A DNA stretch of 32,363 nt from Candidatus Methylomirabilota bacterium. GTDB taxonomy: Bacteria; Methylomirabilota; Methylomirabilia; Rokubacteriales; CSP1-6. Positions 3,217 to 20,336 of the stretch are shown here, piece after piece (the stretch's first letter is position 1; each line of letters opens with the position of its first letter). Location of the stretch: assembly GCA_035709005.1 (NCBI GenBank), contig DASTFB010000017.1:1-32363 (forward strand). Reading direction: 5' to 3'. The notes beneath the pieces were generated by a model. It saw only the letters and a list, made by a program, of their open reading frames with translations, made no database searches and had not been told where the DNA came from. The translations under genes and the position numbers were made by a program.

Positions 3217-3636
3217 TCATTGCACGGGGACGGCCAACGGTTCGCCCTTCTTCGCAACGTGGAAGACCAGGAATTTCAGAGGCGCCGTCTGGCTGGCATT
3301 CTTGTCGTCGTGCACGGTGCGGGGCGGCAGGCTGCCGCTCTGGCCCACAGTAAGTGTGACGGATGGCTTGCCTGCGATCTCCAAGAGCATCGTTCCTTCG
3401 AGGATGTAGGCGAAGGCGTCGCCCGGGTGATAGTGCTTGCCCATGTTGGCGCCGGGCGCAAGCTCGGCCATGAACATGCTGGCTTCCTTCCCATCGCTCG
3501 TGACGAGGTCCGCCTTGTACAGTTCCGCCACGCTCACCTTGCCCTGTTGCATGGCGTTGACGAGCCCGGCTGCCGTGACCCCGAGGACCATTCCGAAAAC
3601 GAGCGCTGCGCCTACCGTGAGCGTTGAGCGTCTCAT
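3217..3636 (-). CDS. Exported single-domain cupin
   Basis: This 139-residue protein has an N-terminal hydrophobic segment (residues 7-29, after MRRSTLTV) that should export or anchor it. A cupin barrel follows: motif 1 'GKHYHPGDAFAYILEG' supplies metal ligands H68 and H70, though the usual glutamate position is shifted or replaced (D73), and motif 2 'LPPRTVHDDKN' gives H109. AGGAGG precedes the ATG. Upstream is a near-perfect sigma54 promoter, and the divergently encoded neighbour is a sigma54-type regulator, so this gene is its most likely target. The substrate is unknown. Confidence 0.85.
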   Translation of the reverse strand: MRRSTLTVGAALVFGMVLGVTAAGLVNAMQQGKVSVAELYKADLVTSDGKEASMFMAELAPGANMGKHYHPGDAFAYILEGTMLLEIAGKPSVTLTVGQSGSLPPRTVHDDKNASQTAPLKFLVFHVAKKGEPLAVPVQ

Positions 3637-3680
3637 GAGAACCTCCTGGCTCCTGAAGGTCGGACGTGACCGACCTCTTC

Positions 3681-3695
3681 GCAACCGTAGTGCCA
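3681..3695 (-). promoter_or_regulatory. Sigma54 (-24/-12) promoter for the cupin gene
   Basis: On the minus strand the sequence is TGGCACTACGGTTGC, matching the RpoN consensus TGGCAC-N5-TTGC, with the invariant GG and GC separated by ten bases. Transcription would start near 3669, leaving a leader of about 33 bases before the ATG at 3636. A short inverted repeat (GGTCGG/CCGACC, 3658-3675) spans the predicted start. Confidence 0.65.
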
Positions 3696-3721
3696 TACGC
3701 CGACCGACGCGGAAGTGCCCG

Positions 3722-3757
3722 CGGCATCCGTAGTTTTCCCTGTTGTCTCGGATGCCG
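3722..3757. promoter_or_regulatory. Inverted repeat, candidate shared enhancer
   Basis: CGGCATCCG (3722-3730) and CGGATGCCG (3749-3757) are perfect 9-bp inverted copies with an 18-base spacer. The centre is about 70 bases upstream of the predicted cupin start and about 75 upstream of the predicted regulator start, where an activator of sigma54 polymerase could serve both. The spacer is longer than in NtrC sites, so the role is inferred. Confidence 0.45.
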
Positions 3758-3788
3758 ACCCGCCATAGACTTCTGGTCGCGCTGGCTG

Positions 3789-3803
3789 TGGTATACCAGT
3801 TGC
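3789..3803 (+). promoter_or_regulatory. Possible sigma54-like promoter for the regulator gene
   Basis: TGGTATACCAGTTGC keeps the GG and GC dinucleotides at ten-base spacing and the TTGC box, but deviates in the -24 part. It includes a 10-bp palindrome, TGGTATACCA, so it could instead be an operator. Its predicted start near 3815 falls inside the ribosome site of the downstream gene, which weakens the promoter reading. Confidence 0.3.
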
Positions 3804-3821
3804 GGCCACGGGAGGGTTCGG

Positions 3822-6800
3822 ATGGCGGATTCGACCTCGCTCCATCCCACGGACCGCATCCTCGGCAACGCCACAGCGATGGCCGAGTTGCGTGCACAGA
3901 TCCGTCACCTCGCCACCTTCGACACCGTAGGAAGTCCCCATGTACCCACCCTGCTGCTGCAGGGCGAGACAGGTACGGGCAAAGGACTGCTCGCGAGGGT
4001 CATCCACGACAGCGGTCCGCGCGCTCACGGGCCATTCGTGGACGTCAACTGCGCCGCCATTCCAGAGCATCTGCTCGAAGCCGAGCTGTTTGGTTTCGAC
4101 GTCGGTGCCTTCACCGACGCCAAGCGCGCGAAGCCCGGGCTGTTCGAGTCAGCTTCCGGCGGCACGCTCTTCCTCGATGAGATCGAAGCGTTGCCGATGA
4201 CCCTACAGGGTAAGCTCCTGCGATCGATCGAGGACAAGCGCGTGCGTCGACTCGGAGCGGTTACCGAGCACGCGGTGGACGTGAAGGTCGTGGCGGCCGC
4301 GCAGCGCCAGCTCCACGAGGCGGTGGCCGAGAAGCGCTTCCGACCGGATCTCTACCACCGCCTTGCCGTCGTCGTCGTCCAGATTCCGCCGCTGCGCGAG
4401 CGGTCTGACGACATCGTTTTGCTGGCGAAGTACTTCCTGAATGTCTACGCCAGCGCACATGGACTCGCCACAAAGCAGCTTGCTCCCGATGCGCAAACGT
4501 GGTTGTGGACGTACGACTGGCCAGGAAACGTACGCGAGTTAGCGCACCTCATGGAGCGGATCACATTGCTCGTGCCTGAGCCGGTCGTCGTTGCACACGT
4601 GCTGAAGCGCCTGTTGGTCACGCATCCGCGTCTCGCAGGTCCATCGGTGCCGGAGACGTCCGTTCCGTCGATTGTCGGCGGGGACGAGGAGCAGATCCGA
4701 GCAGCCATCGCTCGAACCCATGGCAACGTCGTGCGGGCCGCGCGCCTCCTGGGGCTGAGTCGAAACGCGTTCCGCTATCGGATGCTCCGCTATGGTATCG
4801 AGCGTCGGCCCACGGCGCACGCGGACGGTCCTGCCGAACGCCACGCCGAAGTCTCGGAGAATGATTCGGGTGGCGCAGTCCACGTCCACGTGGACGGTGC
4901 GGAGCCGACCTGGGAGAAGAAGCTCGTTGCGGTCGCGACCATCCACCTGACGTTCCCTCGGACAGCGGACATCGATGCGGCGCATCCTCAGCCGTGGACG
5001 CTTGCGAAGCGCTGGGAGCAGATCCTCACGGACAAAGTGCACGGCTTCGGAGGCATCCTCCTCAACAGCAGCCCGTGTTTATTCACCGCGCTGTTCGGTA
5101 TCCCACACACGCTGGAGCAGATGGCGGTACGTGCCTTACACGCTGCGCTCGCAATCCGCCACGCCGTGGCCGAGACGGCGACGGTGGACAGCCCTGAGCT
5201 GCGCGCCGCCGTCCACCTTGGCGACGTGCTCCTGGACCTCCGGCCCCCCTTTATTCCCGCACGGCTTCTCGCTGTTGGCGATACCTTGGCCTATCCCATA
5301 CGGCTGCTCGGTCAGGCTGCAGCCGGCGAGGTCGCCGTCTCGTCCGCCGTCCAGCGTGTCGTCGCGCGCGACTGCTCGCTGGTCGCGCGCGAGATCGTCG
5401 TAGAACTCGGCGGTGCGAGTCCGGATCGTGCGTACATCGTCACCAGCATCCGGCCGGTCGGTGCTCACCGCACTAGCCGGTTCGTCGGACGCGAGCGTGA
5501 GCTCGCGGAACTCTCCCGGATGCTCGACCACGTGTCGCAAGGACGCGGGCAAGTGGTGGCCATCGTTGGCGAGGCCGGTGTCGGCAAGTCGCGGCTGCGC
5601 CATGAGTTCACCGAAGCCGTCCGCGCGTCGTGCCTTGTCGTCGAGGCCGTCTCCTCACCCGGGCAGTCGCATGCGTTTGTGCCGCTCATCGAGATGCTCA
5701 AGCGCTATTTCGCAATCGACGCCCGTGACGACAAACGGATGCGGCGTGAGAAGGTCACCGAGCGAGTCCTCACCCTCGACAAGCATCTCGAGGAGACGCT
5801 GCCGTATCTTCTCCCGCTCCTCGATGTCGTCGATCCTCGCTCGACACTCGCACAGATGGATCCAGCAGCGCGCCGGCGACGCACGTTCGACGCCGTCAAG
5901 GCGTTGCTGCTGCGTGAGAGCCTCAACCAGCCCATCCTCGTCGTCGTGGAGGACCTTCACGGCATCGACGACGAGACGCTCGGGTTCCTGGACGTCCTGG
6001 TCGATGCCGTGCCCGAGGCGCGCGTTCTGCTACTCGTGACGTACCGGCCGGAGCACGGGCATGGCTGGAGCGGCAAGACCTACTACACGCAACTGCGGCT
6101 CGATCCGCTCGATGCAAAACAGGCCGACGAGATGACGGCAGCGCTCGTCGGCGAGGCGCCAGATCTAAAGGAACTCGTCGTGCGCAAAGCGCAAGGCAAC
6201 CCGCTCTTCATCGAGGAAATCGCCCGGGCGCTGCTCGATGGCGGCCCGGACGCGTTCGAGCTGCCGCCCACGATCCAGGGCGTGCTCGCCGCGCGCGTCG
6301 ATCAGCTGGCCAAAGATGAACGCGCGCTGCTTCAGACGCTGGCCGTACTGGGCCACGAGTTCCCGCTTACCCTTGTGCAAAACGTTTGGGATGGTACCGC
6401 CGACGAACTGCGAGTGCTCCTCGCACGACTGCAGGCGAGCGAGTTCATCCGCGAGCGCCCCGCGTTGCCGGAAACAACGTACAGTTTCAAGCACGCGCTG
6501 ACGCGAGACGTCGCTTACACCGCCCTGGATCCCGAGCTGCGGCGCCGCGTGCACGTCCGAGCCGCGGAGGCGACCGAAACGCTCTTCGCCGATGGACTCG
6601 ATGATCACTACCACGTCCTCGCGCATCATGCGCAGCGGGCCGGCCTGACCTCGAAGGCCGTCGACTACCTCGGGCTAGCAGGCCGGCAGGCTGTCCAGCG
6701 CTCGGCCTACGCCGAGGCGATCGCCCATTTTAGGAGCTCGCTCGCGCTGCTGTCCTCGCTGCCGCCCGGCCGTGAGCGAAATCAGCGGGAGCTCGGAGTA

Positions 6801-11421: not shown

Positions 11422-11659
11422 GCGCGGACCATATCTCACGACCGCCGGGGTGTCGAGGGGGTGGCGGCCCGGAGCCGGGCGGCGCGTGTCCCGATGACAC
11501 CCGGGCGGCATCGCGTCGCCGAGGGCCAGTGCCGCGCGCTGGCCGCGCTACGGCAAGCGCATGTTTTCGCTGCGGGCGTCGGACAGTACCAGGCTTGGCA
11601 CCGTCGTTGCTCCCTCGCGCCTCGTGACTGCTCTTTCTCCAGAACGCGAGGTGCTAGCC

Positions 11660-17930: not shown

Positions 17931-18141
17931 AGCAGACGGCCTGCTCAATGCGGCGCCACGCGGTTGCGTCAGATTGTCCCTGCAGGTCAAGGAGTCCCGG
18001 TAGATAGGAGTCATTCCCCAGCCCGCAGCCCGCTCTTGCCGCATAAGCGCTTGATTGCGCGTGGGTTGTAGACCTGGCAACCGATTTGCTGGAACGTTCG
18101 CACCGGAGCAAGGGTCCCATACTCCGAGGAGGTGGCTCGCG

Positions 18142-20217: not shown

Positions 20218-20336
20218 CTGTCTCGACACGGTGGCACGTCTGTCAGCCATCCTACGTCAGCCACCGAACAGCGGACCCCGCCTTCCGATGAACCAATGCC
20301 TTCCGGGCGGATGGGGATTGGCACCTGGACTGCTTG

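Follow-up and report, generated by a model that had tools for sequence, protein, structure and literature searches.

A probable sigma54-dependent switch between a one-component activator and an exported cupin in a Rokubacteriales bacterium

The stretch of DNA under analysis (32,363 nucleotides, henceforth the window) comes from a soil-type Rokubacteriales bacterium, apparently represented by metagenomes alone, whose genome (4.59 Mb, 95% complete) carries a sigma54 (rpoN) gene. Two divergent genes, encoding an exported cupin (start at 3636, minus strand) and a transcriptional regulator (start at 3822, plus strand), are separated by an intergenic gap of 185 bp (3637–3821). An earlier note had described three elements in this gap, a sigma54-type -24/-12 box facing each gene and an inverted repeat between them, and had read the whole as a compact two-gene switch. 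The presence of all three elements was confirmed (Table 1). The cupin has an N-terminal hydrophobic segment, and its start codon is preceded by an AGGAGG Shine-Dalgarno sequence. A literature search retrieved no paper combining Rokubacteria and sigma-54.

Table 1. Features of the cupin–regulator locus, in window positions.
Feature	Position	Strand	Basis or remark
Exported single-domain cupin, 139 aa	3217..3636	minus	Pfam Cupin_2, E 7e-14; homologues align from residue 1
Cupin sigma54 -24/-12 promoter (probable), TGGCACTACGGTTGC	3681..3695	minus	Score 14.8; positional conservation at homologous regulator loci
Perfect 9-bp inverted repeat, CGGCATCCG-N18-CGGATGCCG	3722-3730/3749-3757		Possible upstream activator site
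CTGGT-N17-ACCAG dyad, rival candidate operator	3773..3799		Inferred; TGGT/ACCA core as in kin operators
Regulator-side -24/-12 box of the earlier note, TGGTATACCAGTTGC	3789..3803	plus	Score 11.4
One-component sigma54 activator, 1365 aa	3822..7919	plus	Profile matches and translation

The domain order of the regulator is a Sigma54_activat AAA+ domain (PF00158, E 3.7e-60), an AAA lid, a Fis-type HTH (HTH_8, E 2.5e-10), a stretch without Pfam match, AAA_16 and TPR; Walker A and B motifs (GETGTGKG, LFLDEIE) are found in the translation. The sigma54-contact loop reads GAFTDA, and the exact GAFTGA is absent. With an AAA+ domain, a loop variant compatible with sigma54 and a Fis-type DNA-binding domain, the protein has the attributes of a bEBP. 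Because the cyclase–ATPase–TPR part of TOMM system kinase/cyclase fusions (TIGR03903) can be aligned with residues 404–1327 of the regulator, the region without Pfam match was read as a degenerate cyclase-like domain. Judged by its domains, the regulator is thus a bEBP head fused to a cyclase-like/STAND/TPR tail, AAA_16 being taken as a STAND-type ATPase. Only that part aligns with TIGR03903, whose kinase is replaced here by the sigma54-activator head; since the score (390.5 bits) is below the curated cut-off (705.75), the regulator is not a member of the TOMM fusions.

The loop is nearly fixed among homologous regulators, with FTDA or YTDA in 78 of 81 loci. The same GAFTDA loop is found in NorR G266D, which escapes repression by its GAF domain and still forms open complexes in vitro; the NorR variant is a laboratory mutant, whereas the aspartate of the window regulator is native (PMC2941729 for NorR). 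In D. vulgaris, the regulator DVU2106 has a GAFTDA loop and target operons, and was counted as active (PMC4641369). By analogy, the aspartate appears compatible with sigma54 activation, or is at least no argument against it.

The consensus of sigma54 promoters is TGGCAC-N5-TTGC, with invariant GG and GC. On the cupin side, the near-perfect -24/-12 element claimed by the earlier note was found: TGGCACTACGGTTGC conforms to this consensus, including the invariant positions, and would place a transcription start at ~3669. The sigma54 scan used an approximate weight matrix of the consensus. In the same lineage, sites scoring at least 14.7 occur on this scale at a background of ~0.0035 per 185 bp, both strands included.

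Homologues of the cupin turned out to be a poor comparison set. The closest orthologue, which is 79% identical and belongs to another Rokubacterium (G064, QHSU01000081.1), has neither a sigma54 site upstream nor such a regulator within the fetched 12 kb; hence, the cupin is not obligatorily under the regulator's control. More distant cupin homologues likewise lack a -24/-12 box. As promoter and regulator are absent, these homologues carry little information on the regulator–cupin pair and were set aside. No orthologous regulator–cupin pair was found, so the gap elements are not comparable between true orthologues; in 95 genomes of the phylum, no relative of the regulator exceeded ~39% full-length identity. 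A DNA search with the gap sequence gave short matches only; the two whose loci were inspected lay inside long open frames, and all were taken as chance.

The regulator family is expanded in the phylum, and the start regions of ~80 homologues (full-length identity roughly 33–40%, that of the AAA-HTH head mostly 43–54%) were compared. In 36 of 76 loci, the 50-bp bin from -150 to -100 relative to the projected regulator start contains a sigma54-like site on the divergent strand, compared with 1 on the opposite strand and 0.41 expected from background. Treating loci as independent gives a binomial P of ~1e-60; related paralogues violate this premise, but neither how sharp the peak is nor its bias to one strand hinges on it. 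Such a site is present in 25 of 39 full-length fused members, and about half of the homologous loci have no detectable one. The cupin-side site of the window, at -141 from the regulator start, falls inside the peak. These observations support a divergent sigma54 layout kept family-wide in position and direction, and TGGCACTACGGTTGC very probably represents a real sigma54 promoter facing the cupin. Conservation among regulator kin holds for the cupin-facing box and not for the regulator-facing one, as no plus-strand sigma54 peak was detected across kin loci.

The second sigma54 promoter, attributed by the earlier note to the regulator, could not be upheld. The TGGTATACCAGTTGC sequence exists but has no kin counterpart, and its predicted start, ~3815, lies within the Shine-Dalgarno sequence GGAGG (3811–3815). 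On the regulator strand of the kin, TAnnAT peaks sharply, a single 10-bp bin holding 44 occurrences across 79 loci; the motif resembles a sigma70 -10 element and stands ~10 nt ahead of where translation probably starts. Within the window box, TG-G-TATACC (TATACC at 3792-3797) resembles an extended -10. Given the -10 of the kin and the fact that transcription from a sigma54 start would truncate the Shine-Dalgarno sequence, the box is more likely a sigma70-like extended -10; a consensus scan of the gap found no full sigma70 promoter, so this reading of TGGTATACCAGTTGC is inferential. Regulator starts of the kin, for example at L075 and L089, have the -10-like TAnnAT ~10 nt before ATG, suggesting that their regulator mRNAs may be leaderless.

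The 9-bp perfect inverted repeat is indeed near-central: 70 bases separate its centre (3739.5) from the predicted start on the cupin side and 75 from that on the regulator side, in agreement with the distances first proposed. Perfect repeats with arms of at least 9 were obtained in 2.5% of sequences simulated from the gap's own dinucleotides (P ~0.025), which makes the repeat mildly improbable by chance. It is the sole perfect copy in the genome, and weaker matches are not above a reversed-pattern control. A role as terminator was considered and discarded: no T-run follows, and the lone terminator-like match is a 5-bp stem overlapping one arm.

Upstream of the -24 box, kin loci are rich in ACCA/TGGT cores at a distance of 50–70 bp, and the putative operator covaries with the class of recognition helix. 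Helices of the R-A-R class go with GGTGTTCAAxxCTTGACCAC-type dyads (TTGACCA in 14/17, against 0/19 for R-Y-R; P 2e-7), while R-Y-R helices are often accompanied by CCACCACC (8/19, against 0/17 for R-A-R). The recognition helix of the window regulator, SRNAFRYR, is of the R-Y-R type and resembles those of the kin; CCACCACC is absent from the window gap. The repeat has a core different from TGGT/ACCA, and with its centre ~45 bp from the -24 box on the upstream side, it sits closer to the promoter than the putative operators of the kin. TGGT/ACCA cores in the gap are confined to 3773–3799, the site of the dyad. Either the repeat or the dyad could act as enhancer, and we rate the repeat at somewhat below even odds.

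Other features were seen in the kin gaps. The R-A-R dyad is conserved upstream of R-A-R regulators (L071, L076, L083, L179, L201-L206 and similar), overlaps the presumed -35 region of the regulator and has the appearance of an autoregulatory enhancer. Between operator and promoter, ~10-40 bp upstream of the promoter's -24 box, kin such as L103, L102 and L083 repeatedly carry an AT-rich element like CTAAnnnnCTGATTTTT, possibly the site of a bending protein; it is absent in the window.

Our preferred interpretation, to which we assign a probability of roughly 80%, is a compact divergent switch in which the regulator would activate the exported cupin through the sigma54 promoter at 3681-3695. Both this promoter and the switch appear well supported by the comparison. 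Of the two-gene switch originally envisaged, the part that stands is a sigma54-type activator divergent to the sigma54 promoter of an exported cupin; a sigma54 promoter for the regulator itself does not. A sigma70-like promoter just upstream of the regulator's own start codon would supply a basal amount of the protein, and a signal might be sensed through its C-terminal cyclase-like/STAND/TPR tail. An oligomer of the regulator would then occupy either the repeat (3722-3757) or the dyad (3773-3799), upstream in the gap that both genes share, and its GAFTDA loop would contact sigma54-RNA polymerase at the cupin promoter. ATP hydrolysis would open the promoter, and the cupin would be switched on.

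Other scenarios can be weighed against this one. If both genes had sigma54 promoters and the repeat were a shared enhancer, the regulator would also activate itself. Both boxes match the consensus, and the repeat combines a near-central position with a low chance probability; this scenario is nevertheless improbable, as the regulator-side box faces all the difficulties listed above (kin have the TAnnAT -10 in its place, and a sigma54 start would land in the Shine-Dalgarno sequence) and the kin operators differ from CGGCATCCG in both core and distance. Similarly improbable is that the -24/-12 match is a coincidence and that sigma70 transcribes the cupin independently of the regulator. The 79% orthologue does without box or regulator, and four sites of score at least 14.7, the cupin box included, exist within the 32-kb window; a coincidence would, however, have to reproduce the position and direction of a strong family-wide peak, in a gap where the consensus scan found no sigma70-like promoter.

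A more plausible possibility, although still short of an even chance, is a variant of the preferred switch rather than an exclusive alternative: the regulator would drive the cupin promoter from the dyad, which overlaps its own promoter and might thereby permit autorepression, and the repeat would belong to another factor or to chance. The TGGT/ACCA cores are the element enriched in the kin, the distance of the dyad from the regulator start is about that of kin operators, and the recognition helix is kin-like. Against this, the dyad has arms of only 5 bp, which alone are at chance level, and its spacing is unlike that of the kin.

The divergent partners of the regulator family seem to be mostly exported or membrane proteins, a pattern that the exported cupin fits. 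Among 41 putative partner ORFs, which were chosen automatically and may include wrong starts or frames, an uncontrolled count gave 27 with a strongly hydrophobic segment within residues 1–60, and some of the remainder resemble lipoproteins. A Pfam scan of ten partners gave DUF3224, SBP56 and PD40 above cut-off, and five had no match. Exported partners, cupin included, agree with the proposal that sigma54 tends toward control of the cell exterior (PMC3162934). A membrane-anchored partner of ~190 aa recurs at L071, L078, L179, L201 and L204, with no Pfam match in the two that were scanned.

A one-component bEBP divergent from an adjacent sigma54 promoter is a well known arrangement: 6 of 13 one-component bEBP genes of D. 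vulgaris are divergent from an adjacent sigma54 target, and in DVU3142-ohc of Desulfovibrio (PMC4641369) and in NorR-norVW the activator gene likewise lies back to back with the sigma54 promoter of its target. What is unusual here is the C-terminal STAND/cyclase-like/TPR tail, the presumed sensor (that of NorR is an N-terminal GAF domain), together with the near-fixed GAFTDA loop, unlike systems of the type just mentioned. We lean towards the view that this lineage has expanded a class of one-component sigma54 activators in which the GAFTDA loop is native and the sensor tail is of STAND/cyclase-like/TPR type; that their genes are often divergent from one for an exported or membrane protein; that recognition helix and operator have co-diverged between paralogues; and that the cupin pair is one module of this kind. 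An uncultured phylum would harbor a paralogous family with a single geometry, a sensor tail unusual among bEBPs and the loop whose introduction into NorR renders that activator constitutive. With dozens of natural activator–promoter pairs, such a family would allow tests of the regulation of the GAFTDA loop and the evolution of Fis-domain specificity, and its geometry would predict regulator targets in uncultured bacteria.

Elsewhere in the window, three further strong sigma54-like sites are found on the plus strand, at 11596-11611, 18075-18090 and 20319-20334 (scores 14.7-16.3). On the minus strand, the two small gene pairs at 292-966 and 1331-1948 look by eye like toxin-antitoxin modules (RelE/Phd-like and HigBA-like).
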